The notes beneath the pieces were generated by a model. It was given only the letters and a program-made list of their open reading frames with translations, was not told the origin of the DNA and made no database searches. Below, piece after piece: positions 8,245-38,148 of a stretch of 62,825 nucleotides of DNA. This stretch comes from a bacterium (GTDB taxonomy: Bacteria; Calditrichota; Calditrichia; RBG-13-44-9; J042), in contig WFTQ01000047.1 in assembly GCA_015485355.1 (NCBI GenBank), forward strand, positions 1-62,825. The letters run 5' to 3'. The position numbers and the translations under genes are program-made. Within the stretch, counting starts at the first letter, position 1, and the number at the start of each line of letters is the position of its first letter.

Positions 8245-11028
8245 TTATTTATATCCGAACACGGCCGAATAAATGATCAATACAATCAGGGTAATGCCGA
8301 TGGTTAGAAAAATGCCGCCGAAGATGCGCACCAGGCGTTCCCACTGAGGGGTGATATCCTTTTTAACCAGCCGTTTTTTCAACTCCCCACTGGCCTTCAT
8401 TTCCGCGTATTCCCGGGGACGCACAATCTTAAACTCCTCCAGGGGGACCAATCCGGTAAAGATGACCGTATCCAGCGGGAAGGCTTCCGGGCGCAAATGG
8501 GTATTGAAAAAATGGACCGTAAAGATAAACCCTACCGCTAAGAGGGCTTCGTCGCTGTGCACGATGTGGGCCACGTTGATCAACCAGCCGGGTAAAAATC
8601 GGGTAAAAAATTCCGGGAACCAGAGCATCAACCCGGACAAGCCGATCACCGCCACTCCCCAGAACACGGCGAAATAATCGAATTTTTCCCAGTACGTCCA
8701 GCGCCCGTAAGCGGGACGGGGTCCAAGTCCGAAAAACCACTTCATAGTGGCCCAAAAATCTTTCACATCCTGTTTATTGAACATGATCGAATGGGGCCCG
8801 AAGAGGAACCGTTTCCAGCTGATTTTCTTTTTGCGCTTCAATTTTATCAGCGAAATCAGATGGTAACCGAAATAACCAAACGTAATAAGCGCCCCGATGC
8901 GATGAATGATGCTGGCCACCTTCACCCCGCCGATCATGTCGGCCAAAAATTTGGCCCAGGGCATGCCGGCAAATTTCAGCATCATTCCGGTCAGGGCCAA
9001 ACCCATAAAACTTACAATTACAAACAAGTGGGTGATCCGCTGTTCCCGGGTAAAACGCTGAATATAGTATCGGCTCAACGATGAATTGGACCGGTGTTTT
9101 TTCCGTTCCCTCACGCCCTGAATGGATCGCGGCAACCACAACAGGGTGTGAATCCCAAAAAACCCGAACACCCCGATCAGCAACGAGGTCATGAACCAAT
9201 AGGTATAAAACAGAATGGGGTATTTGACTTTGTCGTGATGGGTGGCATGGGTCAAATACCCCGTGAAACGCTCATTGGCATCCTCGTGGCACTTCCGGCA
9301 GGTTTTCACGATATTCTTCACCCCTACGGCGGAGTTGGGATTGTTTACCGCCAGAATTTTATGATCCCCGTGACAATCACTGCACTTTGCGGCTTTCAAA
9401 TAGCCCAGCTGATAGGTCTTCCCATGAATGGTTTGAAAATATGTTTGCGCCAACTCGCGATGACAGGAACCACAGGTCTGGGTCACCTCGGTTAAAAATT
9501 GATCCTGACGCGTTTCCACAATGCCATGGGCGGTATGACAATCCGCACACGTCGGCAGCTTTTCGTCCTCCCTGGCGCGATTAATGGCATGCACACTTTG
9601 TACATACTCTTTGTAGATGCCCCGATGGCATGTGGCGCAGGTGGCGGGGATGTTTCGAGGAAAAATGGTGGAGCGGGGATCGTCCATGCGTAACACATAA
9701 TGGGATGTATGGCAATCGGAACACACCGCGCTGGGAAGCAACCCTTTTTCCACCAATCCCTTGCCGTGGACACTTCTGGAATAATCGTAGAACACATTAA
9801 TCTCGTGCAATCCCACCACTTTGGCGGCCTTGCCATCCTTTTTATGACATTCCCCGCACAAGGTGGGAATGTTGGCACGATAGGTGGGAGAGGTTTCATC
9901 ATAGCGGGATTTTACCCGGTGTTTCCCATGGCAATCGGTACAATAAGGGGCATCGGGACTCTTTTTAAAATAGGCCTGTCCATGCCCGCTCTGAAAATAC
10001 TGATTGGCCAGTTCTGCATGACAATTGGAACAGTCCACCCGACCGGCGGTCTGGCAGGGCCGCCGCAACCGCGGGGAAACATCCGAATGACACTTGACAC
10101 AGGGGATATTTCGATGAACACTATTGGCGATATCCTCTTTGCGCACGGTCAAGGAAATGGTTTGCCCCCCTTCTTGCTTAAAAATCGTTTCCTTGGCGTG
10201 GCACCTCAGGCAGGAACGGTCCGCCACCTTGATCACGATATTCTGCCGCCGCACCTTGTGGGGAGGATGGCAATCGGTACAGGCGGGAATGGCACCGGGC
10301 CGCTTTTCCCACAACTCCCCTTTGATCACCTTTTTGTGCACCTCTTCGATACGGGCATGACATTTCATGCAGGTTCCGGCAATGTTATTCAGGGAAATCG
10401 AAGATTTGGGATCGGTGTGGGGCAAAATTAAGTGGTTGCTATGGCAATCGTTACAAGTGGCGGTAACGATCAATCCTTTCTTGAACAACCCTTCCCCATG
10501 AATGCTCTGACTATAATTTTCCAGGATGTTGTGTTCCGATATGTTGTACACCCGGGCCACAGGCGCTCCTTCTCGATGACAGCGACCGCATAGATAGGGG
10601 ACCCTCAATTTGTTGGTGCGTGAAACAGGGTCCGTACCGGGACGGATGTCATGCGTCCCGTGGCATTCGGCACAGGTGGGGGCATAAATGTCGCCGCGGT
10701 GTAAGGCCTGCCCGTGAATGCCGATATCGAACTTCTCCTGCACATCATCGTGGCAGTTGCCACAATCCACCCGTTGCAGTTGCTCCGGATGGGGGAACTC
10801 TTCCACGGCCGCATCCTCGTGACAATCGATGCAATCGAATCCACTATGTACCGAACGGTTTAATTGGTCGATGTCGACATAAAGGGAAATCGCTTTGCCG
10901 GCGCGTTCCGTGGTCAACTCCGGGTCGTCGTGACAATCCAGGCAATCCTCGTTGGTCTGGGCGGAGAGGTGCAGGGACAACCCCATTGTGAAAATTATAA
11001 CAAGAAGGTGAGGTCGTTGACACCACAT
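8245..11028 (-). CDS. CbcL-like giant cytochrome: 19 haem-c motifs fused to membrane cytochrome b domain
   Basis: 927 residues. After a signal peptide come about 580 residues with 19 CXXCH motifs, mostly in paired units with following HGxH or HxxH histidines. A C-terminal membrane domain (about 600-927) has about six helices and histidine pairs suited to b-type haem (IIHRIGAL, GYHL, VHSDEA, VHFFNTHLRP). This is the layout of Geobacter CbcL (multihaem c domain plus HydC/FdnI-like b domain), but CbcL has about half as many c-haems. Predicted role: inner-membrane quinol oxidation with electrons passed along periplasmic haems. The ATG at 11028 is preferred over TTG at 11037 because AAGGA lies 9 bases before it. 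Residues 110-225 and 345-470 are duplicates. Divergent from its paralogue at 11198. Confidence 0.88.
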   Translation of the reverse strand: MWCQRPHLLVIIFTMGLSLHLSAQTNEDCLDCHDDPELTTERAGKAISLYVDIDQLNRSVHSGFDCIDCHEDAAVEEFPHPEQLQRVDCGNCHDDVQEKFDIGIHGQALHRGDIYAPTCAECHGTHDIRPGTDPVSRTNKLRVPYLCGRCHREGAPVARVYNISEHNILENYSQSIHGEGLFKKGLIVTATCNDCHSNHLILPHTDPKSSISLNNIAGTCMKCHARIEEVHKKVIKGELWEKRPGAIPACTDCHPPHKVRRQNIVIKVADRSCLRCHAKETIFKQEGGQTISLTVRKEDIANSVHRNIPCVKCHSDVSPRLRRPCQTAGRVDCSNCHAELANQYFQSGHGQAYFKKSPDAPYCTDCHGKHRVKSRYDETSPTYRANIPTLCGECHKKDGKAAKVVGLHEINVFYDYSRSVHGKGLVEKGLLPSAVCSDCHTSHYVLRMDDPRSTIFPRNIPATCATCHRGIYKEYVQSVHAINRAREDEKLPTCADCHTAHGIVETRQDQFLTEVTQTCGSCHRELAQTYFQTIHGKTYQLGYLKAAKCSDCHGDHKILAVNNPNSAVGVKNIVKTCRKCHEDANERFTGYLTHATHHDKVKYPILFYTYWFMTSLLIGVFGFFGIHTLLWLPRSIQGVRERKKHRSNSSLSRYYIQRFTREQRITHLFVIVSFMGLALTGMMLKFAGMPWAKFLADMIGGVKVASIIHRIGALITFGYFGYHLISLIKLKRKKKISWKRFLFGPHSIMFNKQDVKDFWATMKWFFGLGPRPAYGRWTYWEKFDYFAVFWGVAVIGLSGLMLWFPEFFTRFLPGWLINVAHIVHSDEALLAVGFIFTVHFFNTHLRPEAFPLDTVIFTGLVPLEEFKIVRPREYAEMKASGELKKRLVKKDITPQWERLVRIFGGIFLTIGITLIVLIIYSAVFGYK

Positions 11029-21766: not shown

Positions 21767-21880
21767 ACTGTTAAGTGACGGGAATGAAAACTCCGAGCCT
21801 GTTGGCCTAAGTCCCGGTGGGGATAGGGCGGCAGGCCGATAGGGTAAGGCTGGAAACGGCTTTGCCTCCCGTGTTTGGAA
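21767..21880 (+). ncRNA. Molybdenum cofactor (Moco) riboswitch
   Basis: Leader directly upstream of moaA with the hallmarks of the Moco RNA motif. Outer stem P1 is ACGGGA (21778-21783) with TCCCGT (21867-21872). Then come CTCCGAGCC, a GCC-TGTT-GGC hairpin, the tetraloop-receptor strand CCTAAG (21806-21811), and a 7-bp hairpin 21846-21863 closed by a GAAA tetraloop (21853-21856). The 3' side is GCCTCCCGT. Such RNAs bind Moco and repress cofactor synthesis or transport genes. AACTCC at 21789-21794 is fully complementary to GGAGTT (21882-21887) in the moaA ribosome site, which suggests control of translation. A covariance-model search would settle the assignment. Confidence 0.85.
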
Positions 21881-21892
21881 AGGAGTTGAGCC

Positions 21893-22912
21893 ATGGTGCA
21901 ACCACACAACAAGACCCCGGATTCACCTCCCCCAAAATTGATCGATAATTTTGGTCGGGAAATGAATTACCTGCGACTGGCGGTCACCGATCGCTGCAAC
22001 CTTCGATGCGTGTATTGTATGCCCGAAAAAGGCATCGACTGGATACCCCGGGAAGCAATTCTTACTTATGAAGAAATGCATCGGTTGGTACGTCTGTTTG
22101 TGGAGCTGGGGGTCACCAAAGTCCGTTTGACCGGTGGAGAGCCTTTTCTTCGAAAGAATTTGGTCGAATTCCTGGCCCGCATTCGGCAATTGCCCGGTTT
22201 ACGTCACATTCACGTAACCACAAACGGTGTATTGACGGCGCCCCACGTCCCTCGATTAAAAGAGATCGGCATCACCAGCATCAATTTGAGTCTGGACACT
22301 TTACGCCCCGAGCGTTTCTTTCGGATTGCCCGGCGCAACGAATTCGGCGCCGTGATGGAAACGTTCCACCGAATTCTGGAATATGGGATCCCGTTGAAGC
22401 TAAACATGGTGGTTTACGAAGGGCTGAACGAGGACGAGATCGTCCCCATTGCCCGCCTGGCCGAAAAGTATCCTGTCGAAGTACGTTTTATCGAACAAAT
22501 GCCCTTTAACGGCAACGGTGGTTTTCGCCGGATTCGCTTTTCCTGGAAGACGATTTTAGAAACCCTCAAGACGGCTTTTCCCGGGATGGAACCCCTGGCG
22601 CCGGGGCATTCCACGGCAGCGGTGTATCGGGTAGCGGGATTTCGCGGTCGTCTGGGCATCATCGGGGGGTATTCGCGGGTGTTTTGCGAAACCTGCAGCC
22701 GCATCCGGGTCACCCCCCGGGGGGTGATGAAAACCTGCCTGTACGACAACGGGGTACTGGATCTAAAGCGGCTGATGCGTGCCGGAGCGTCGGATCGGGT
22801 GATTCAACAAGCCATTCGAGAAACAATCCTGCATCGTGCCGCCAACGGATTTGAGGCCGAGAAAAGAGCGCCTCGCATTCATTCGGACTCCATGGCAACC
22901 ATTGGAGGTTGA
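21893..22912 (+). CDS. moaA: GTP 3',8-cyclase (molybdopterin biosynthesis)
   Basis: 339 residues, radical-SAM enzyme that with MoaC converts GTP to cyclic pyranopterin monophosphate. N-terminal cluster cysteines C35/C39/C42 (CNLRCVYC), SAM-binding TGGEP, and the C-terminal second cluster (CETCSRIRVTPRGVMKTCLY). It ends in the GG dipeptide required for activity. Length normal. Preceded by the Moco riboswitch and a strong AAGGAG site; the molybdate transporter starts within two bases of its stop. Confidence 0.96.
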   Translation: MVQPHNKTPDSPPPKLIDNFGREMNYLRLAVTDRCNLRCVYCMPEKGIDWIPREAILTYEEMHRLVRLFVELGVTKVRLTGGEPFLRKNLVEFLARIRQLPGLRHIHVTTNGVLTAPHVPRLKEIGITSINLSLDTLRPERFFRIARRNEFGAVMETFHRILEYGIPLKLNMVVYEGLNEDEIVPIARLAEKYPVEVRFIEQMPFNGNGGFRRIRFSWKTILETLKTAFPGMEPLAPGHSTAAVYRVAGFRGRLGIIGGYSRVFCETCSRIRVTPRGVMKTCLYDNGVLDLKRLMRAGASDRVIQQAIRETILHRAANGFEAEKRAPRIHSDSMATIGG

Positions 22913-26981: not shown

Positions 26982-27413
26982 ATGATCCAGACAGAACGTT
27001 ATCGAGTAGCCATAGTGGACACCCCGCTGAAGCTACAACCCCTTTTTGATTTTGTTGTATCCGAACACTGTGGTGCCGTGGACATCTTTATTGGTACCGT
27101 TCGTAATCACGCCGAGGGGAGAGCGGTGGAGCGCCTGGAGTATCATGGCTACCCCGAAATGGGTGAAAAGATTCTGGAACAGATCGTTCAGCGGGCTTTC
27201 CAGCGTTGGCGCATTCATCGGGCGGCCGTTTATCACCGAATTGGAACCTTGGCGCTTAAGGAGGCCAGCGTTATTATTGCCGTTTCCAGCGCCCACCGTG
27301 CCGAGGCCTTTGAGGCCTGCCGTTTCGTGATCGAAGAGATCAAGAAAGATGTCCCGGTATGGAAGAAAGAACATTTTACAGACGGGCACACCCGCTGGCA
27401 GGGGGTGGAATAA
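26982..27413 (+). CDS. moaE: Molybdopterin synthase catalytic subunit
   Basis: 143 residues. MoaE signatures are GAVDIFIGTVRNHAEGR near 31-47, LEYHGYPEMGE, YHRIGTLALKEASV, SSAHRAEAFEACRF and the catalytic-lysine region PVWKKEHFTDG near 125. With MoaD it converts cyclic pyranopterin monophosphate to molybdopterin. Last gene of the cluster, convergent with the amidase gene 50 bases on. Confidence 0.95.
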   Translation: MIQTERYRVAIVDTPLKLQPLFDFVVSEHCGAVDIFIGTVRNHAEGRAVERLEYHGYPEMGEKILEQIVQRAFQRWRIHRAAVYHRIGTLALKEASVIIAVSSAHRAEAFEACRFVIEEIKKDVPVWKKEHFTDGHTRWQGVE

Positions 27414-27463: not shown

Positions 27464-30400
27464 CTACCGCAACAGCATCATCTTGCGGGAAAGCCGGCGA
27501 TCCTTCACTTTGAGACGATAAATATACACCCCACTGGCAACGGGGATGCCGCGATCATCCCGGCCGTCCCATTGAACGCGATACACCCCCGCCGTCCGGC
27601 GCCGGCGGACCAGGGTGCGTACCTGTTCGCCCAGTATATTGAAAATTTCCAGTTGCACCTCAGCACCGGTCAGGCGTGCGGGAATCCGATATTCTATTGT
27701 GGTCGCAGGATTGAAAGGGTTAGGGAAATTGGGCAGAAGCGCCAACCGTCGGGGGACACCCGCATCGGTCCCTTCAATGGAAGTGACATAGCCAAAATAA
27801 TTCAATACCCGTCCCATCAATTGCGCCCGGTCCGTCGGCGTAACGATGGTTTCGAAGGTAAAGCCCAGATACACCAGTTGGGCCTCCCGGGGGCTTTGCC
27901 CATACGTCCCGGTAAACTGAATCCCGGCAATGCGTAAGTTATCATAAACCAGCGCCGTTCGGCTGCCATGAATGGGCTTTAAATAATCGGGATAATCTTC
28001 GATGTAAAGATCGGGTCCATTCACAGTGCCATACTCAAAATCCAGGCCTTGGAACACCGTTCCGTTCTCTCCCAGAACCCGGTTGGAGCCCGACAAATCT
28101 CCCACATACTGAGCCCGCAGCAAATACTCATACCGATCCTTTTCCACCGCGGTGGTACCGGCAAAATCGTATCCGATTTCGGATCCGGAGATGAACAGTT
28201 TGCCCCCGTTTTCCAGATAATCCAGCAACCGAAATTGATCGGCGGCGGCTAAAGATTCGTCGGAACGGCTATCGTCTCCACAAAAATAAATGACCACATC
28301 GTAATCGTTCAGATCGATCTCTCCGTTCTGAACGGCGGTTTCGGTACAGGATTCGAATCCCACCCCGTTAGCGGCCAATGCCTCGCCATAACTGGCCACA
28401 AACGGGTGATACGGTTTTTGCCAGCTGGCCCGGCGATCGAAATTGTCCACAATTAACACCCTGGGACCGGAAAAAAATCCCACACCATAGGCATCGCTGG
28501 GCAGGCTCACAAAAGGTTCCGCGGTACCGTCTTCCCCCACAAATTTATTGGTGTCCACCGCTACTACCCGAAAATACACCGTCGTCCCGGTGTCCGGATA
28601 GACAAGACGATACACCCGATCGTCGGCCGTTAACACCTGTTCATCGACAATAGGATCGCCCCAGGTCAGTCCATCGGGACTGGCATAGAGACGGTAGCCG
28701 GCAATATCGCCCTCCAGCGTTGGATACCAGGATATTTCAATTTCACGACTCCCGGGAACCACGGGTTTCACCCACTTTAACACCGGGGCATGGGGGGCAT
28801 CCAGGCGATCCACCTTTTCCAGACGAATGGCATCCAGCACCAGACGGACATCGAAGGCGCCCAACCCACTCAGTTCAATAAACCCACCGTTCCGGGGAAC
28901 ACCGGTAAAATAAATCGGGGTGGGACTAAGACGACCCCATTTCTGGTAGAACACCCGGTTGTATTCGGTAAAATGCACCATCCTTCGGCCCAGGGCGTTG
29001 ACGAATGTAAAACGGGCGCTTTCTCCCAGATACCGGGAAGCGGTGGCGAAATATACCCGGTAATCCCCCGGCTCGCTTACCCGAGGATAAATGCGGGCCA
29101 CATGGCTACTATCCTGGTCCAAGGCCACCAGACGGGCTCCATCGTTTAGTCCCTCCAGCTGGACATCATTCAAATCCAGTTGCCAGTCTCCCACCACATA
29201 CAAATCGGCATTGCGCATGCTGTCGGCGTCTTCCACCTCGGCATAAAAGGTTTCCACCTCTATGCGAAACTGATATCGATAGCTCATCGTCCTGGCAGGT
29301 TCTCCCAGATCGCCGGCCTGAACCTCTACCACCACATTCTGCGAATAGGGAAATGGTTCCGGCGGCTGGTAATGAATACGATATTCGGTAGCCGTGCCAC
29401 TAATGCTGGGGACCACTTGCTCATGATTCACCCACACTCGAATGGTTTGACGGTCCACCCCTTCTTCATCGTCGCGAATGGAAAAGGAAATGGCGGTACC
29501 CGGGTCTACCTCCGCAGAAAACGGTTGGGGAAAGGGAAAAGCCACATAGGGAGCTCCGAACCCCAGGGTTTTGCGAATCTCATTCCGCATCACCGGCAAA
29601 CGCACATAAAGGTTGTCCCCCGGGCAGGCGGTGGCCTTGTAATCCCGATGGCCGAAGAGAGAATCCGGATTGATTGTATAGGCATCGCTCAGCCAGCTCC
29701 AGATGTTTACCAGACTCCGGAAGGCCTCTTCGGTGGGATATTCCCCCGCAATTTGAAAATTACCCATGTAGGAGATACCAATATTCCCCGTATTGTTTCC
29801 CCCCACATGGGTCCCCCGGTATTCCACCGGCACCCCTTCGTATAATCTTCCGGAATCGTCCACGCAGAAGTGGTAACCAATATCCTGCCATCCCCGACCA
29901 TTCTGATGAAAATCTTGAATAAATTGCATTTCCTGAATGCCCTCTTCCAGGGTGGACACCCGGCGACCCGCGGTATGATGCTGGGTCAACCGATAAGGAT
30001 TGTGAGGAATGTAGTTGCCGACGGGTGGGTCGGCTCCCCATTGTTGCCGGGAGATGATCGGGGGTTTGGGGACGGTATCCTGAACCATAAAAAATGCTTT
30101 CTGGGAAGGCGGCCTCCTTTCCCTTTCCGGAAGTCTACCCTCTTGCTTACGATTGATCCCTTCAACGGCATAAATTTCGATCCGGATGGGCGGCCGAACG
30201 CCCCGATTGATGATGCGATACTGAATCTGACGGGTCTCTCCCTCCGGAAGATCATATCGAGCCCAAAAGCGTCCATTGGGGAATACCCGTAAATAGACCG
30301 TTTCCCATTGCGTCCAGCCTCCTTTTTCGTCCAGATATCGGAGCTGCAAAACCACGTTGGTATCGGATAATAATCCATTGACCAGTATGCGATCGAAAGG

Positions 30401-30595
30401 CTCCCGGGCCGGTTCGCTTTCCTGTGAGGTAAACAATACCGAATCCCCCGCCCGGGCGACGAGCCGGGCACTTAATTGGATATCCAGATTCACCTTTCCC
30501 TCAAAGCGCAGCAGTTCACCGGTCTCTTGAGCAGATGCCAGAGAACATAACACCCCCATGAAGAGTGCGACAAGCTTCCAGATGATTTGTTTCAT
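27464..30595 (-). CDS. Secreted PGRP-type amidase with golvesin-like, FnIII, GATase-like and T9SS domains
   Basis: 1043 residues. Signal peptide (1-22), a beta domain, then an N-acetylmuramoyl-L-alanine amidase/PGRP domain (about 180-345; SRQQWGAD, LTQHHTAG, YHFCVDDSG, GHRDYKATACPGD with zinc-ligand histidines and cysteine). A bacterial-Ig-like segment is followed by a golvesin-like carbohydrate-binding-type domain (about 455-610), then FnIII (about 620-715). Next is a degenerate class I glutamine-amidotransferase-like domain (about 730-950; RVLIVDNFDR, FISGSEIGYD), and last a T9SS sorting domain. Predicted to cleave cell-wall stem peptides outside the cell. Last of a run of three enzymes with the same C-terminal architecture. 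Ribosome site GGGAGAGG. Confidence 0.88.
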   Translation of the reverse strand: MKQIIWKLVALFMGVLCSLASAQETGELLRFEGKVNLDIQLSARLVARAGDSVLFTSQESEPAREPFDRILVNGLLSDTNVVLQLRYLDEKGGWTQWETVYLRVFPNGRFWARYDLPEGETRQIQYRIINRGVRPPIRIEIYAVEGINRKQEGRLPERERRPPSQKAFFMVQDTVPKPPIISRQQWGADPPVGNYIPHNPYRLTQHHTAGRRVSTLEEGIQEMQFIQDFHQNGRGWQDIGYHFCVDDSGRLYEGVPVEYRGTHVGGNNTGNIGISYMGNFQIAGEYPTEEAFRSLVNIWSWLSDAYTINPDSLFGHRDYKATACPGDNLYVRLPVMRNEIRKTLGFGAPYVAFPFPQPFSAEVDPGTAISFSIRDDEEGVDRQTIRVWVNHEQVVPSISGTATEYRIHYQPPEPFPYSQNVVVEVQAGDLGEPARTMSYRYQFRIEVETFYAEVEDADSMRNADLYVVGDWQLDLNDVQLEGLNDGARLVALDQDSSHVARIYPRVSEPGDYRVYFATASRYLGESARFTFVNALGRRMVHFTEYNRVFYQKWGRLSPTPIYFTGVPRNGGFIELSGLGAFDVRLVLDAIRLEKVDRLDAPHAPVLKWVKPVVPGSREIEISWYPTLEGDIAGYRLYASPDGLTWGDPIVDEQVLTADDRVYRLVYPDTGTTVYFRVVAVDTNKFVGEDGTAEPFVSLPSDAYGVGFFSGPRVLIVDNFDRRASWQKPYHPFVASYGEALAANGVGFESCTETAVQNGEIDLNDYDVVIYFCGDDSRSDESLAAADQFRLLDYLENGGKLFISGSEIGYDFAGTTAVEKDRYEYLLRAQYVGDLSGSNRVLGENGTVFQGLDFEYGTVNGPDLYIEDYPDYLKPIHGSRTALVYDNLRIAGIQFTGTYGQSPREAQLVYLGFTFETIVTPTDRAQLMGRVLNYFGYVTSIEGTDAGVPRRLALLPNFPNPFNPATTIEYRIPARLTGAEVQLEIFNILGEQVRTLVRRRRTAGVYRVQWDGRDDRGIPVASGVYIYRLKVKDRRLSRKMMLLR

Positions 30596-30671
30596 GACCT
30601 CTCCCTATGATAACCTTGTGCTTTCCCGCCCGTCGAGGGACGGAAGCCGGAATTCCCGGCACGAATCCGTT

Positions 30672-33167
30672 TCATCGATTCAAAATCATTTTACGGGATT
30701 GCGATTGTGCTCCCACCTGCAATCGATAAATATATACACCACTGGGAACCGGTCGGCCCTTACCGTCCCGGCCATCCCAGACCACCCGGTGCCGCCCGGC
30801 CGGCATGCGCCGATGTACCAGAGTAATCACCTCGCGGCCCAACAAATCGAACACCTGTAAGAGTACAGGTTGCGGAAAGGCATCAGGCAGGGTAAAGGCG
30901 ATGGTGGTAACAGGGTTGAAAGGATTGGGATAATTCTGTTCCAGCTGAAACCTGTGGACGGCGGTTGTCGGTCGCTTTTGCGGTATGGCGGTAGGCACAT
31001 CAAAGAAGGTTAGTATCCGTTCCATCAGGCTATCGCGCGCGCTCTGAGGATAGAAAGCCTCGAATCCCACGGCCAGATACACCAATTTACCGGGCTGAGT
31101 GCCATTGCCGAACAGGCCTTCGTATTGAATCCCGGCGCCTCCGTTACTGCCGGCATCGAACCCAGGATAAACCATCGCCAGTACGGCGCCCTCTTCCGGG
31201 AGGATGCCATCAGGATAATCCACATTATAAGTGCCCTGGCTGCCATCATCGAAGGCAAGATTGCTCAGGCCGGCGAAAATGCCTTCGGCGGTACCGGAGA
31301 CCCGATAATTTCCCGTCTTATCACGAATGTAACGGGCCTTCAGGTAGTCCCGGTAAAAATTCCGATCTGCCTGTGACCCTTTGGCCACCAGATCGTAACC
31401 GATCTCCGAACCGGAGATAAAGAGACGGCCTCCGTTTTCCAGGTAGGCGGCCACCTGATGTTGTTCCAGCCCGCTGAAACTCTCGTCCGAAGTGCCTTCT
31501 TCTCCCAGAATCCAGATGACCGTGTGATAGTCCGACAGGTTCAACAAGCCCTCCTCAATCACTTCGTTGGCACAGGCGTCGAATGCATATCCCATCCGGG
31601 CGACGGAGGGGGCGAACCGTTTGATATAGTCGAACGTGTTGCGCGTTCCGGATGTGCGATCGAACCCATGAACGATTAAAATAGGGGCCTTCCCTGGGGT
31701 GGGTCGAACGGCCAACACCTCTGTGGTGGGGCTTTCTCCATTAGCATTCACCGCCGAAAGTTTGAAATAGTAAACGCTGTCCGCCGATAATCCCGACAAC
31801 AGTATGCTATGGCCGGGATAATCCACCGTCTGGAAATGCACCGCGTCGGTGCTACGATAAACCCGGTAGCCGGTGGCACCCGCAGAAGGGCTTACCGCAA
31901 TTTGTACCCGCCCATCGCCCAGGTTGGTCAACCGGAAATTGGCGGGCTTCAGGGGTGGGGCCGTGGAGCCGAAGGCATTCGAAACGGCCGCCTGCAACTC
32001 GGTACGCTGCCCGTCGTAGGTTAGGGCCCAGACGGCGATGCCCTTCAAATCCCGATCATTCACCAGATCGAACTTGAGGGACAGACTTAAACTATCATCG
32101 TACCATCCCTGGAACCATTGGTTCCCCTGTTGATATTTGTACCAGGGGGTTTGGGAATGTTGGTCCCACAACCGTCCATACGTTTGAGCGTTGGAATAGG
32201 CCACGCTGTAAATCATGGCACTGCCCACATCCGTCGTGGGGGAATTGAGTTCCCCATCGGCGGTGGGCCATTCGATGCCATAAAAAGGTACGCTTAAGAT
32301 CAATTTCGCATGGTTGTTCTGGGTTTTCAACAGATAGTCTTCCACCGTCCAGGTGACATTGTAAGTGCCCCACACATCGCCGCTGGTGAGGGGGGCCACA
32401 GGGCCCGCATTGGGTGCACTGCTCCAGTGATAATCATAGCCTTGCATGATGAGCCCATCGGTCACCTCCGCCAGGGTGAAGTAATCGAACGCGTTGCGCC
32501 AGTCCACTGCCGGCGTAAATATGGTCACATACGATCCGGAAATCTCTTCATGAAACGTATTCGTCAGATCGGTCATGAATCGGGTTAAATTTTCCCTCTG
32601 GTCACCGGGCACCCCCTCAAAATCGATGGTAACTCCATCTGCACCGGCCAGCTTGACCTGGTTTACCAGATTGGTAATCAAATTCTGACGATTAGCGGAA
32701 GCGCTCAATAATGTTCGGAGTTTATCCGAATCGAAAAGAACGGCGGTTAACACCACGCGTACGCCGTTGGCGTGGGCCAATTGCACCAATCCCGAGGCCG
32801 GCCAGTGCCGCAGGTTCACCAGGTTGCCCAGCTCATCCACCTCCGCCCCGAAATAGGCGATGGTCGTCACCAGGTTATAGTTGATGTTCTCATAACCGTC
32901 ATACCGCCAATACGGCAAATACCCAAACACCTCCCGGGAGAGCTGAACCGAACGCGGCTGCAAGGGAAGAGGCTTCACCGAGCGATCCGGCTGAATGGCA
33001 GCGAATCGGGACTGTTTCCGATGATATTCCCATTCTATTTGATGGATACTCTTGTACTCGGGATACGGTGCCTGGAATGGGGCGTTCCGATTGGACTGCG
33101 CCCGAAGGGCGCCCCCCATCACACACAGCAGCAAGGAAAATCCGATCATCCCAATTGTTGTTTTCAT
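30672..33167 (-). CDS. Secreted GH18 glycosidase with FnIII, GATase-like and T9SS domains
   Basis: 831 residues from the ATG at 33167, which gives a normal signal peptide; an ATG 36 bases earlier would add a hydrophilic extension. GH18 barrel about 55-375: VFGYLPYWRY start and catalytic DGVTIDFEG, closest in style to spore-cortex or peptidoglycan GH18 enzymes of the SleL/YaaH group. FnIII follows (about 385-470), then the shared GATase-like domain (PILIVHGFDRT, FISGSEIGYDL; about 475-710), then a T9SS sorting domain (NYPNPFNPVTT). Likely cleaves N-acetylglucosaminyl bonds in peptidoglycan or chitin. Middle gene of the three-enzyme family; 76 bases before the amidase gene. Confidence 0.88.
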   Translation of the reverse strand: MKTTIGMIGFSLLLCVMGGALRAQSNRNAPFQAPYPEYKSIHQIEWEYHRKQSRFAAIQPDRSVKPLPLQPRSVQLSREVFGYLPYWRYDGYENINYNLVTTIAYFGAEVDELGNLVNLRHWPASGLVQLAHANGVRVVLTAVLFDSDKLRTLLSASANRQNLITNLVNQVKLAGADGVTIDFEGVPGDQRENLTRFMTDLTNTFHEEISGSYVTIFTPAVDWRNAFDYFTLAEVTDGLIMQGYDYHWSSAPNAGPVAPLTSGDVWGTYNVTWTVEDYLLKTQNNHAKLILSVPFYGIEWPTADGELNSPTTDVGSAMIYSVAYSNAQTYGRLWDQHSQTPWYKYQQGNQWFQGWYDDSLSLSLKFDLVNDRDLKGIAVWALTYDGQRTELQAAVSNAFGSTAPPLKPANFRLTNLGDGRVQIAVSPSAGATGYRVYRSTDAVHFQTVDYPGHSILLSGLSADSVYYFKLSAVNANGESPTTEVLAVRPTPGKAPILIVHGFDRTSGTRNTFDYIKRFAPSVARMGYAFDACANEVIEEGLLNLSDYHTVIWILGEEGTSDESFSGLEQHQVAAYLENGGRLFISGSEIGYDLVAKGSQADRNFYRDYLKARYIRDKTGNYRVSGTAEGIFAGLSNLAFDDGSQGTYNVDYPDGILPEEGAVLAMVYPGFDAGSNGGAGIQYEGLFGNGTQPGKLVYLAVGFEAFYPQSARDSLMERILTFFDVPTAIPQKRPTTAVHRFQLEQNYPNPFNPVTTIAFTLPDAFPQPVLLQVFDLLGREVITLVHRRMPAGRHRVVWDGRDGKGRPVPSGVYIYRLQVGAQSQSRKMILNR

Positions 33168-33274
33168 GGCCCTGCCCTTGTTGTTATGTTGTAATGTTTC
33201 CATTCAATTCCGTGGTGTTCCGGGGTGTCGGATTCCGTCTTTAAAAGAGGCGCTCCCGAATCCCCTCATGCCTT

Positions 33275-35521
33275 TCATCTTATCAATACCATTTTACGCG
33301 TCGCTCGAAAAACGTCTTTACCCGAATCGGCTTGCATTCGTAATAAATAGACGCCTGCAGGTACCGGTGCATGGTGTTGATCCTTGCCATCCCAGCGAAT
33401 TCGATAACGTCCCGGGGCTTGCCGTCCATCCACCAGCACCCGTACCCGTTGCCCCAACAGGGAATAGATTTCCAGCCTTATCCGGGCCGATACGGGCAAC
33501 TGGTATTCAATCATCGTTTCCGGATTAAAGGGATTGGGGTAGTTGGGCGACAGGGAAAATGAACGAATCCCCATCGCTGTTTCGGTTTCTTGCAGTCCCA
33601 CCAGGAAATCGAAAAACGTATCCAGCACATCCCGAATGATCTGCAACCGTGCTGAATCATCCCCGATCGTTTCCCAGGGGAAGGCCAGATAGATCAGTGT
33701 TCCCGAGGAATCGCTTTCTCCAAAAGTGCCCCGATAATAAATACCGGCGGCATCCCCGTTCGCATATTTCAGACAAACCCTTGTGGAATCTCCCACAGGC
33801 TGAATGACATCCACGGAGTCCACCCGATACGCCCGGGAACCAAAAGTAAAAGCCATTTGCCTAAAGGGGCGCAAGTCGGTGCCATGAACCTGAGTTCCCT
33901 CCGGACCCCGATAAAGAAAATCGGCCTTTAAATAATGGTGCAGAAAATCGGCATCGGCGATACCGGCACTGTCGGAACCAGCGGTATCCAGATCCCAGGC
34001 GATGTGTGCACCATTAAGGAACAGTTTCCCTCCGCTTTCCAGATATTCTTTTATCAGCGTTTGTTCGGCGGCATTGAGGGTCTCCAGACGATCCGCTTCG
34101 TCCCCCACAAACCAGAACACCGCATCATAATCCCGTAATCGAACCGTTCCGTCCACGACACTCTCGTTGGGTGCCGAATCGAAGTGAAATCCCCAGGAAA
34201 AGACGGCGCTTCCATAGTCATAGATAAAGTGATGCCAGGGTCGGGGCCAGGCGCCATCGGTGCGGTCAAATCCGTCCACGATCAGAATCCGATGCCCCTG
34301 GGCCGCATACCCATTGCTGGTGCCCAGTACATCCGACGGATCGCTCTCATTTTTCCAGGGAGTATTGTCCACGGCCGTAATTCGAAAATAAATGTCCCGA
34401 TTCAATACAATGTGAAGGCTGGTATCGGTGACTTCCGGGGGCAAATCCTGTTCATTTTTGTACAACGTCCAATTCTGATTATCGAAGCTGTAATATACCC
34501 GATATCCCAGCAGATCGGGATCCGGACTGGCGGTCCATCCATAGCGCAGGCCCTCTTCGTCGCCCACAAAATAACGGAAGGTGGGGGTTTGCGGGGGCGT
34601 GGTGTCGGACTCTCGAATGGTCACGCGAACGAAAGCAGTATCCGCATTGAAGCGGGTATCCTCGGTAAACACCATCACCACATAATCGCCCGGGGTCAGC
34701 TGGGTGGTATCCCAATAATTATCCCGGCCCACATCGTTGGTCACCTGATAGACATGGCTGGTGGTGCTGGATAAGGGCCGATAATAAACCCGGTTGACAT
34801 AGGCATTATCCGGCTTGGTATCGAATTGAAAGCGCCATCCTCCATTGGGCGGTTCATAGATTACCGTTGCGGTATCGGCACTCAGGATTTTATAGCCGAT
34901 TTTATAAGTACCGTTGTTAAGCCGGGACTCCCGGGCGTTTGGGGGACCGTTCTGTTCGTCCACTTTAACCACAATATCGACCCGCCCGCTTAAATGGGTT
35001 GCGGGTAACTCCGTGGTGGTGTTATTTTCAAAAAAACGCACAAATCGAATAATGGGTGGCCAGGGATCAACCAGCGGAGTCAAACCACTATTGACTAACA
35101 TCGAGTTGCGTTCGCTACCCACATACCCATTGGTAAAATGTACATGGCCGCTCCCCGTTCGAATATAGCCGATTATCGTTGTGGAGGCATACACCGGGTC
35201 GCCCACCTGCAGATTGGGATTGGGGGTGATATGCACATAGGCTTTATCATCCACCCGCACATAGGGGGTGCCGCTGGTGGCAATGGCCACGATGGTTCCG
35301 TCTTTCACCGGATAGACCGGCGAACCGTCCGCCTTGGGGATATCGGTACCGTTATGAAAGTGCCCGCTGGGGCTGGTGCTGCGGTATTCACAAAAATTTC
35401 CGGTGATCTCGTGGCTCTGATCAAACGGCTGAACCGGCCAGGGAAATTGATCCTGGGCCCGGCCCGGAAATATTCCCAATACCCAGATGCAGCCAAAAGC
35501 CATGCAGATGATACGTTTCAT
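33275..35521 (-). CDS. Secreted M23 metallopeptidase with FnIII, GATase-like and T9SS domains
   Basis: 748 residues. Signal peptide (1-22); M23/LytM-like domain about 25-150 with zinc ligands in HFHNGTDIP (H and D) and GHVHF (the HxH pair). A beta-sandwich region follows, then FnIII (about 315-400), the shared GATase-like domain (RILIVDGFDRTDG; nucleophile elbow altered to FLNGAHIAWD; about 410-650) and a T9SS sorting domain (NYPNPFNPETM). Predicted cell-wall endopeptidase. Its ATG overlaps the stop of the upstream propeller gene by four bases, so the two are translated together. Confidence 0.88.
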   Translation of the reverse strand: MKRIICMAFGCIWVLGIFPGRAQDQFPWPVQPFDQSHEITGNFCEYRSTSPSGHFHNGTDIPKADGSPVYPVKDGTIVAIATSGTPYVRVDDKAYVHITPNPNLQVGDPVYASTTIIGYIRTGSGHVHFTNGYVGSERNSMLVNSGLTPLVDPWPPIIRFVRFFENNTTTELPATHLSGRVDIVVKVDEQNGPPNARESRLNNGTYKIGYKILSADTATVIYEPPNGGWRFQFDTKPDNAYVNRVYYRPLSSTTSHVYQVTNDVGRDNYWDTTQLTPGDYVVMVFTEDTRFNADTAFVRVTIRESDTTPPQTPTFRYFVGDEEGLRYGWTASPDPDLLGYRVYYSFDNQNWTLYKNEQDLPPEVTDTSLHIVLNRDIYFRITAVDNTPWKNESDPSDVLGTSNGYAAQGHRILIVDGFDRTDGAWPRPWHHFIYDYGSAVFSWGFHFDSAPNESVVDGTVRLRDYDAVFWFVGDEADRLETLNAAEQTLIKEYLESGGKLFLNGAHIAWDLDTAGSDSAGIADADFLHHYLKADFLYRGPEGTQVHGTDLRPFRQMAFTFGSRAYRVDSVDVIQPVGDSTRVCLKYANGDAAGIYYRGTFGESDSSGTLIYLAFPWETIGDDSARLQIIRDVLDTFFDFLVGLQETETAMGIRSFSLSPNYPNPFNPETMIEYQLPVSARIRLEIYSLLGQRVRVLVDGRQAPGRYRIRWDGKDQHHAPVPAGVYLLRMQADSGKDVFRATRKMVLIR

Positions 35522-36735
35522 TGTAACCTGTATGTTTGTTTTTCCTGTTGAAAGCCGATCTGGATAAACTCTCCTGTTGGGGCAAAGCGCAGCGCGGGCG
35601 ATAGAAACCGTCGACCGGAAAAGTTCAACTCCTGAAACACCTCTCCGTCCCGATTGAGCAGCAGCAGGCGAGGTTCGACGAAATGAAACCGGCGATCCTG
35701 AAACTCACTGCGGGCCATCAACAGGGCCGCCGCTTCCCCCGCAGGGTGGATTTCCACCGCGGCTATACCGGTCGCCTTCGAAGGAAGCGAATATTCCCAC
35801 AAAACGGTACCGGCGGGGATCGTTATCAAACGCGCCCGTGCATTCTCCGCTAAAACCAGAAAACGCGCCGCCGAGGAAAATTGACCGTATTTCATCAACA
35901 AATCGGTTTCGGCCACCTTCTGCCCCCGTTGGTCATACACCAGGGTTTTCCGCTCAACCACCTTACCGGCTCCCATTCGATAGACCCCCAGGGCAAACCA
36001 TTGACCATCCGGCGCAACGATCAGACGGGTGAATCCATGGGCCGGTATCGCCCGACGCCACACAATCCCTCCCTTGGGGCCCAGCAGCAAGAGATGCGGT
36101 TGGGCACCGCTCCGCTTCATCCCATGTCGATTGGCGGCAACAACCAGGCGATTCTTTCCTGGAATCACCACCGCATCCAGCTGCCGTTCCAGGTCATAGG
36201 CGGCGTCCGGGAACAGGGAACCCGTGGGTATCCGATCCCCCCGGGGACCAAACAGCCGTAACCGTGCGGTGGTATTTTGCAAAACAAACAGCCATCCATC
36301 ATCCGTGATTCGCATTATCGGAAATCCTTCATCGTATGACCGGGTAAAGGTTTCCTGAAATCGCCGACCGTCGGTGACATGATAGAGTTCAATAAATCCT
36401 TTCTGCTGACCGCCGGGTGCCCCAGAGAGAGTCGGTGTCCACAGCAGGGCATAATACCGCCCCGAGGGGGAAAAACGAACATCCACGGTGTTCCGGGGCA
36501 GCATTACACGTTTGTACTCCCCGGAGGCGTTTACCCAGATCAACGCCTCCCGGGTAAAGGCCACGTTCCATTCTTCAAAGAAAAACCAGCGCTCCACCGG
36601 GACGTCCAAAGAGGCCTGAGCCACCAATTGATACGGGCCTCCTGTCTTCGCCCGGGTACCCACCTTCAGCCCAATGATAAGAACAATGGTACCCAGAAAA
36701 AACCACAAGATATACTTCAACTTTGATGATCTCAT
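35518..36735 (-). CDS. Membrane-anchored beta-propeller-like protein
   Basis: 405 residues from the ATG at 36735, chosen for AAGGAAGAGAG upstream and the short basic N-terminus. One N-terminal helix (about 7-26), then about 370 residues of repeated beta-rich segments of WD40/YVTN-like character (VDVRFSPSGRYYALLW, RLIVAPDGQWFALGV, ALRFAPTGEFIQIGF). Probably a periplasmic propeller held in the inner membrane. No catalytic motif. The four-base overlap with the M23 gene suggests that it assists or senses the work of the downstream wall enzymes. Confidence 0.7.
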   Translation of the reverse strand: MRSSKLKYILWFFLGTIVLIIGLKVGTRAKTGGPYQLVAQASLDVPVERWFFFEEWNVAFTREALIWVNASGEYKRVMLPRNTVDVRFSPSGRYYALLWTPTLSGAPGGQQKGFIELYHVTDGRRFQETFTRSYDEGFPIMRITDDGWLFVLQNTTARLRLFGPRGDRIPTGSLFPDAAYDLERQLDAVVIPGKNRLVVAANRHGMKRSGAQPHLLLLGPKGGIVWRRAIPAHGFTRLIVAPDGQWFALGVYRMGAGKVVERKTLVYDQRGQKVAETDLLMKYGQFSSAARFLVLAENARARLITIPAGTVLWEYSLPSKATGIAAVEIHPAGEAAALLMARSEFQDRRFHFVEPRLLLLNRDGEVFQELNFSGRRFLSPALRFAPTGEFIQIGFQQEKQTYRLQ

Positions 36736-36915
36736 GAGTCTCTCTCTTCCTTTATGTTCGGGAAACTCGGGCAAAACACCCGGCATTCATCGTGCCGCCC
36801 GGCTCCCATACCCATCATCCGGTGCCGGAGGAGTATTCTTTCTCCTTTGGGCATGGGAGCACCCATTGCTGAAAAGGTGTACGAGACCATACCGGTAAGC
36901 GGTTTCAGACACCCA

Positions 36916-38148
36916 TTAATGGAAGAACAGATAACCCACAAAAATACCGGCAATAATTCCCGCCAGGTCGGCAATGAGTCCTGCACCGGCGGCATACCGG
37001 GTGTTTTTAATATTGACCGAACCAAAATATACGGCAATGATATAGAAAGTGGTTTCCGTAGCCCCCCGGAAAATGCTGGAAAGACGTCCCACAAAGGAAT
37101 CCGGTCCAAAAGTTTTCATAATCTCCAGGTTCATGCCTCGTGCCGCACTACCGCTCAACGGTTTCATCAATGCAGTGGGTAAGGCCTGCACAAAATCGGT
37201 ATCAATCCCGAACAGGCCGATCACTCCGGCGATACCGTCCACAATGAAATCCAGGGCCCCGGAAGCCCGAAACACCCCGATGGCTACCAGGATCGCCACC
37301 AGATACGGAATGATCTTGACGGCCACGGAAAACCCTTCTTTGGCCCCCTCAATAAACGTTTCGTAAATGTTGATCCTTTGCCACAAGGCAATCACAATGA
37401 AACCGACAACCACACTGAAGATGATCAAATTGCTCATCACATTGGAGATGGTGGTGATCCGTTCCTGAGGGATCATAGAAAAATAGCCCACAACGCCACC
37501 CATCACAATGGTTAGTCCCCCCAGATAAGCCAGAATGACCTTATCCAGTAAATTGATTTTCTGGATGACCGCCACGGTAATCATGCCCACCAGGGTGCTG
37601 CAAAAGGTGGCCAGCATGATAGGAATGAACACGTCTGTGGGATTCGCAGCACCCACCACCGAACGGTCAATCAGAATGGTTAGAGGGATAATCGATAAAC
37701 CCGACGTGTTCAATACCAGAAACATGATTTGCGCATTGGAAGCCGTATCCTTACGGGAATTGACCTCTTGCAATTCTTCCATGGCTTTCAGACCCAAAGG
37801 CGTGGCGGCATTGTCCAGTCCCAGCATATTGGCGGAAAAATTCATGATCATGGAGCCAATGGCCGGATGATTTCTGGGAATTTCGGGAAAGAGACGGGTA
37901 AAGAAGGGCGCGGTAATCCGACTAAAAAACTGTATCACCCCTCCTTCTTCTCCAATCTTCATTATCCCTAACCAGAACGCCATCACTCCGGTTAAGTAAA
38001 TCGATAATTCAAATCCCGTTTTAGACATATCAAAAATGGACTGAACGATTTGAGGAAAGACTTCCACATCTTGAAAGAACACCCAACGGATCAATCCCAC
38101 CACAAAAGCCACCAGGAAAAAGACAATCCAGATATAGTTTAATACCAT
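36916..38148 (-). CDS. SpmA-SpmB fusion, nucleoside-recognition (Gate) domain membrane protein
   Basis: 410 residues with about ten hydrophobic segments. Residues 1-200 match SpmA (GIMKIGEEGG near 62, MNFSANMLGLDNAATPLGLKAM near 103, LNTSGLSIIP); residues about 205-410 match SpmB (GAKEGFSVAVKIIPYLVAIL, PTALMKPLSGSAARG, ATETTFYIIAVYFG). These fused forms are common outside spore formers, where the role is unclear; the family is thought to move small molecules. Being next to secreted wall enzymes is suggestive, since SpmAB affects cortex maturation in Bacillus, but I see no sporulation gene here. Confidence 0.85.
   Translation of the reverse strand: MVLNYIWIVFFLVAFVVGLIRWVFFQDVEVFPQIVQSIFDMSKTGFELSIYLTGVMAFWLGIMKIGEEGGVIQFFSRITAPFFTRLFPEIPRNHPAIGSMIMNFSANMLGLDNAATPLGLKAMEELQEVNSRKDTASNAQIMFLVLNTSGLSIIPLTILIDRSVVGAANPTDVFIPIMLATFCSTLVGMITVAVIQKINLLDKVILAYLGGLTIVMGGVVGYFSMIPQERITTISNVMSNLIIFSVVVGFIVIALWQRINIYETFIEGAKEGFSVAVKIIPYLVAILVAIGVFRASGALDFIVDGIAGVIGLFGIDTDFVQALPTALMKPLSGSAARGMNLEIMKTFGPDSFVGRLSSIFRGATETTFYIIAVYFGSVNIKNTRYAAGAGLIADLAGIIAGIFVGYLFFH

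Follow-up and report, generated by a model that had tools for sequence, protein, structure and literature searches.

Three adjacent genes on a 62,825-nucleotide Calditrichota contig (WFTQ01000047.1, assembly GCA_015485355.1; the whole contig is termed the window) encode enzymes whose catalytic heads belong to three different families, Amidase_2 (PGRP type), GH18 and M23, and whose C-terminal parts are shared. The common tail consists of a fibronectin type III (FnIII)-like spacer, a domain with the predicted fold of class I glutamine amidotransferases (GATases), here called the chassis, and a sorting tag of the type IX secretion system (T9SS). A predicted beta-propeller protein is encoded with them. 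We consider it fairly probable that these proteins form a surface kit degrading foreign peptidoglycan (PG), in which the pseudo-amidotransferase domain binds wall glycan or docks the enzymes.

In this proposal T9SS would place the amidase, GH18 and M23 enzymes outside the cell, where their heads would jointly open amide, glycan and peptide bonds in the wall material of other bacteria or of dead ones. The non-enzymatic chassis would bind PG glycan or muropeptide, or would dock the enzymes, a role comparable to the levan binding of a DUF4960 domain in the Bacteroides levan utilisome. We found no description of this arrangement in the open-access papers searched.

Gene layout and catalytic heads

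The source genome is 3.44 Mb in size and 98.7% complete, and the window is one contig of it. Its best named relative is a Calditrichota metagenome-assembled genome, with 86% identity between the GH18 chassis domains. Four genes lie on the minus strand in the order beta-propeller, M23, GH18 and Amidase_2; the first two overlap by 4 bases, and gaps of 71 and 76 bases separate M23 from GH18 and GH18 from Amidase_2. The row of three wall-type enzymes described in the initial annotation is upheld by Pfam matches for all three heads on this one strand.

The Amidase_2 protein (1043 aa, 27464–30595) has its head at aa 202–327 (29615–29992; Pfam E = 7e-21), with H206, H316 and C324 as zinc ligands and Y241 as catalytic tyrosine, all invariant in 8/8 relatives. 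A linker, a weak FnIII-like domain (28550–28750), the chassis (aa 712–935, 27791–28462) and the sorting domain (27467–27739) follow; a Golvesin-like assignment for the linker was not supported. In the GH18 protein (843 aa, 30672–33203) the head occupies aa 94–397 (32013–32924; E = 2e-33) and carries the DxxDxDxE motif with its catalytic glutamate; D194, E196 and Y256 are invariant in 83/83. Downstream are FnIII (31710–31949), chassis (aa 508–735, 30999–31682) and sorting domain (30681–30944). The head of the M23 protein (748 aa, 33275–35521) spans aa 21–155 (35057–35461) and scores below the Pfam cut-off (E = 2.5e-4; 21.6 against 28.7 bits). The zinc-binding residues H56, D60, H97, H126 and H128 of its HxxxD, YxH and HxH motifs are invariant in 24/24 relatives, and judged by these intact motifs the head is a divergent M23 subfamily. 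A second domain (aa 156–310, 34592–35056), to which no family was assigned, accompanies the M23 head in every relative; an FnIII-like region, the chassis (aa 411–637, 33611–34291) and the sorting domain (33278–33556) complete the protein.

The initial annotation placed FnIII in each protein. This holds for the GH18 protein (E = 2e-5), is weak in the amidase protein (E = 0.04) and in the M23 protein follows from position only. Its T9SS tags are sound in all three: the type A model TIGR04183 scores above cut-off at each C-terminus, and the genome has SprA (SprA_N, E = 2e-25) and two C25 peptidase genes. The N-termini look like signal peptides by eye. These features point to a surface location of the three enzymes.

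In the PDB the GH18 head is closest to the sporulation-specific glycosylase YdhD and to an unnamed GH18 protein, with spore cortex-lytic enzymes also high; it is probably an N-acetylglucosaminidase. Chitinases are also among its Pfam and PDB matches, and the head could then be a chitinase in a cluster acting on chitin-rich or mixed necromass instead of PG. We regard this as improbable, given the identity of the top matches, the amidase and peptidase neighbours, and the NamZ genes beside its Fidelibacterota counterparts (see below). Moreover, when chitin was tried as a substrate for Caldithrix abyssi, only four saccharides supported growth and chitin was not one of them (PMC5317091), a result that fits a non-chitin substrate of that species' probable GH18-chassis protein and is no proof of it.

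The chassis domain

The three chassis copies align end to end at 36–41% pairwise identity, and the M23 copy as query retrieves the other two with E = 7e-37 and 3e-31, far above chance. Full-length alignment and these search scores bear out the shared C-terminal domain that was first proposed from the window. An AlphaFold2 model of the GH18 copy, built on a 72-sequence alignment, has pLDDT 93.4 and pTM 0.92. Its best PDB matches in Foldseek include class I GATases, the GIFT domain of IFT52, a levan-utilisome chain and GH164, at TM about 0.5; Escherichia coli PabA is matched with E = 3e-6, again at TM about 0.5. The GATase resemblance seen earlier therefore extends to the predicted fold.

The nucleophile elbow reads GSEIG in the amidase and GH18 proteins and GAHIA in the M23 protein, without cysteine as previously noted, and cysteine is absent from this position in all 133 copies of the tree set described below. 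A catalytic GATase is excluded for this reason. In place of the nucleophile, all 58 NlpC, GHL10, GH18 and PGRP copies of that set have glutamate; tyrosine is usual in Amidase_3 copies, M23 copies are mixed, and histidine, aspartate and other residues also occur. The conserved G6, G60, G91, D97 and E208 come after predicted strands and D158 is nearly invariant; G60, G91, D158 and E208, at strand ends, are 99–100% conserved. On the model, the chassis appears to keep the GATase pocket side without the nucleophile.

Sequence-profile search of the PDB gave weak matches only, one of which is a DUF4960 protein (E = 0.32). DUF4960 is also the nearest Pfam family, matching 21/72 isolated chassis sequences (best E = 1.1e-7). 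In Bacteroides a DUF4960 domain binds levan within the surface glycan-binding protein (SGBP) of the levan utilisome. That protein resembles the chassis enzymes in that its Ig-like domains are followed by a non-catalytic GATase/ThuA-like domain, and in acting at the surface beside a glycosidase. It differs in being a lipoprotein separate from the enzyme and in binding levan, whereas the chassis is fused to enzymes that are T9SS-tagged, and the structure match has 11% identity. The IFT52 GIFT domain and the GATase-like region of GH164 likewise show the fold in non-GATase proteins; these are a eukaryotic transport protein and a mannosidase, and their likeness to the chassis is one of predicted fold. 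By analogy with the SGBP, the most likely role of the chassis is to bind a ligand that all heads share, PG glycan or muropeptide, or to hold the enzymes together in a single surface complex.

Varied catalytic heads on a common accessory module are also found in endolysins, autolysins and cellulases with carbohydrate-binding modules. Here, unlike in those, the accessory module is a pseudo-GATase domain and the export route T9SS.

Distribution and phylogeny

A single chassis query matches 39/40 Calditrichota relatives, and a profile matches all 40. Scanning 84,980 species genomes gave 329 chassis loci, of which 80 were kept; the 12-row query alignment biases them towards GH18 proteins. The 80 span Calditrichota, Fidelibacterota (Neomarinimicrobiota), KSB1, WOR-3, Fermentibacteria, Ignavibacteriota and unplaced bacteria. 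Heads were assigned by Pfam and by comparison with the window proteins and representatives. The NlpC/P60 assignment is weaker than the others because it comes from a DCSGF-type motif and a Pfam match of E = 0.14, and GHL10 is counted as a wall enzyme on our general understanding of its relatives.

A quick IQ-TREE phylogeny of 133 chassis domains, all gathered by chassis similarity and with GH18 rows subsampled, separates 104 rows on a wall-enzyme side from 29 others (branch support 89, not starred). All 94 assigned heads on the wall side belong to wall-enzyme families: GH18 (29), M23 (21), NlpC (15), Amidase_3 (15), PGRP (8) and GHL10 (6). The remaining 10 rows there are seven open-ended fragments, one protein with an alpha/beta-hydrolase-type head (L056) and two headless proteins. 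Head type changes 21 times on the tree, against 90.7 with shuffled labels. The profile search with the chassis alone that had been suggested thus lists at least six wall head families across phyla. The three-enzyme kit is real as a trio, yet too narrow as first drawn: it extends over several phyla and takes in these further families, an alpha/beta-hydrolase-type head and a conserved propeller partner.

The 29 other rows carry Omp28, S8 (subtilisin), M10 (matrixin) or unassigned proteins, none with a wall-enzyme head, which excludes a chassis restricted to wall enzymes. Related domains on such unrelated T9SS cargo are what one would expect if the chassis were passive and ligand-free, serving T9SS cargo as a stalk or in folding, its sharing a mere convenience of gene fusion. 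We think this unlikely. The wall-enzyme copies group in a clade of their own, with no wall head among the 29 rows outside it; the strand-end residues are almost fully conserved; Amidase_3 copies retain the chassis without a T9SS tag; and a headless chassis protein adjoins NamZ. Recent local triplication is also excluded as a full account of the trio, because head types mostly form clades of their own across genera and phyla.

The three-enzyme cluster was met only in this Calditrichota order, the genes being dispersed elsewhere. It is complete with its propeller partner in G001, G009, G010 and L100 and partial in others.

Several chassis proteins depart from the common plan. In L056:4040-7108, L253:2467-5658 and L273:5311-8403, from Fidelibacterota and one Calditrichota genome, a head with the alpha/beta-hydrolase motif GHSGGG and then a DYSHG-containing region precede a wall-clade chassis. 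No Pfam family above cut-off covers this head, which is a candidate new wall enzyme. The headless chassis protein next to NamZ (L140:9608-11026, L143:9608-11026) has 473 aa and a signal-peptide-like N-terminus. The window's genome has a fourth, more distant copy, in a subtilisin-like protein (L004:28-3399), which the initial annotation overlooked, as it did the beta-propeller gene. One protein, L181:3478-6645, combines two chassis-like stretches with a concanavalin-A-like (Laminin_G_3) domain.

Peptidoglycan context

In Fidelibacterota the GH18-chassis gene is adjoined by genes of the NamZ exo-beta-N-acetylmuramidase family (PF07075, PF20732), seen in 51 loci; no NamZ gene lies within the window. 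Among 41 genomes compared, NamZ stands on both sides of the GH18-chassis gene in 14/16 that lack MurB and in 0/25 that have it; 14 of the latter have a diaminopimelate-decarboxylase-like gene before it and NamZ after. In one Calditrichota locus (L094:5457-8540 and 9677-10999) an Amidase_3-chassis gene and a NamZ gene share a strand and are ~1.1 kb apart.

Kit size was compared in 149 Fidelibacterota genomes, sampled with a requested completeness of at least 85%, eight of them hand-corrected for weak non-wall matches. Wall-chassis genes average 2.70 in MurB-lacking genomes (n = 46) and 0.66 in the others (n = 103). Two or more are present in 38/46 of the former and in 16/103 of the latter (Fisher p = 4e-15, a value that overstates the independent evidence because the GH18 tree needs about three MurB changes and gives three independent pairs). 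The gap persists within genome-size bands. One MurB-lacking genome, G103, has four chassis matches; the two that were read have NlpC and alpha/beta-hydrolase-type heads.

The cultured Fidelibacter multiformis IA91 is reported to depend on exogenous muropeptides, its class being said to be without PG synthesis genes (PMC11652737). NamZ-based muropeptide scavenging, as in F. multiformis and Tannerella forsythia, resembles what we propose in its use of PG fragments and in the NamZ genes that flank GH18-chassis genes in Fidelibacterota. It differs in that chassis enzymes are not mentioned in the literature found and that the window's organism keeps MurB. Predation, scavenging and self-remodelling had all been offered at the outset; scavenging is the best supported, through the NamZ neighbours and the enrichment in PG-auxotrophic relatives.

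Predation or antagonism would have the kit lyse living competitors on contact, with nutrients as a by-product. Complementary bond specificities at the surface and the T9SS location would suit such a role, to which we give little credence: the genes have neither an immunity gene nor a toxin module nor a match to a defence family beside them (PADLOC finds no defence system at the locus), the distribution is conserved and core-like rather than patchy, and Fidelibacter is reported not to kill but to use fragments shed by bacteria as they grow (PMC11652737).

Several points weigh against degradation of foreign PG. The association of MurB with kit size is largely the history of one clade. The window's organism itself has MurB and so can build its wall without a foreign source; its kit would be of use in nutrition or turnover, not in supplying the wall. 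Most Amidase_3-chassis copies are lipoprotein-like and without a T9SS tag. DUF4960 scores 13–21 bits in full-length proteins, under the Pfam cut-off of 29.2 bits. The head activities are predicted, and the GH18 family also takes in chitinases. Finally, the presence of chassis proteins in almost every Calditrichota genome would be just as compatible with a housekeeping role in the wall.

The last point leads to self-remodelling, in which the enzymes would act on the cell's own wall during growth, division or opening for secretion, the chassis serving as envelope anchor or localisation domain. Chassis genes in 40/40 Calditrichota genomes, usually one per head type, suit a core function, and MurB in the window's genome and a possible membrane anchor at the start of the propeller partner (by eye) agree with it. 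On the other side, T9SS tags route cargo across the outer membrane, and in Fidelibacterota kit size and double NamZ flanks accompany MurB loss. There, 60/103 MurB-bearing genomes are without wall-chassis genes, so a wall does not require the kit. The window's genome also has several further M23 genes without a chassis and a second Amidase_2 gene, the GH18 gene being its only one above cut-off. On balance we rate self-remodelling as rather unlikely.

The beta-propeller partner and neighbouring genes

The gene upstream of M23 (35518–36786, minus strand) encodes a 422-aa protein with a confidently predicted beta-propeller (pLDDT 93.7), whose structure matches are mainly WD40-type propellers. In 24/24 loci checked, a homologue adjoins the M23-chassis gene and shares its strand; the loci come from three phyla, represented by Calditrichota, Fidelibacterota and one Melioribacteraceae genome. 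It is upstream in 21, mostly overlapping or touching, and downstream in three. In other families of the order a different protein of ~420–450 aa adjoins the amidase gene (L037:9180-10433, L038:10633-11982, L039:11227-12534, L046:10361-11716), overlapping its start in L039; it is absent beside the window's amidase gene.

Upstream of the propeller gene and on the same strand, 36916–38148 encodes a PF07670 Gate (nucleoside recognition) protein, a neighbour kept in G001 and G003 among the genomes compared. On the other flank lie a MoaE gene (26982–27413) and, on the plus strand, a molybdenum/tungsten cofactor riboswitch (21779–21901; RF01055, E = 3e-18). Promoter and terminator scans gave counts near the shuffled expectation.

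Implications

A wider interpretation, which we put forward tentatively, is that the chassis is a dedicated PG-recognition domain. It would make at least six unrelated hydrolase families, with the beta-propeller and NamZ, one surface murein utilisome across Calditrichota, Fidelibacterota, Ignavibacteriota, KSB1 and WOR-3, and this utilisome would supply muropeptides for the own wall of PG-auxotrophic Fidelibacterota. With its conserved propeller partner, the M23 pair is directly testable. The chassis points to unfamiliar wall enzymes, such as the one with the alpha/beta-hydrolase-type head, and is a recognisable mark of wall-cutting enzymes in several phyla, commoner where wall synthesis has been lost. 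Fidelibacterota (SAR406) are widespread, and some are unable to make their own wall material. The report on Fidelibacter (PMC11652737) is silent on exported enzymes that would free wall fragments; the chassis enzymes are candidates for this role.

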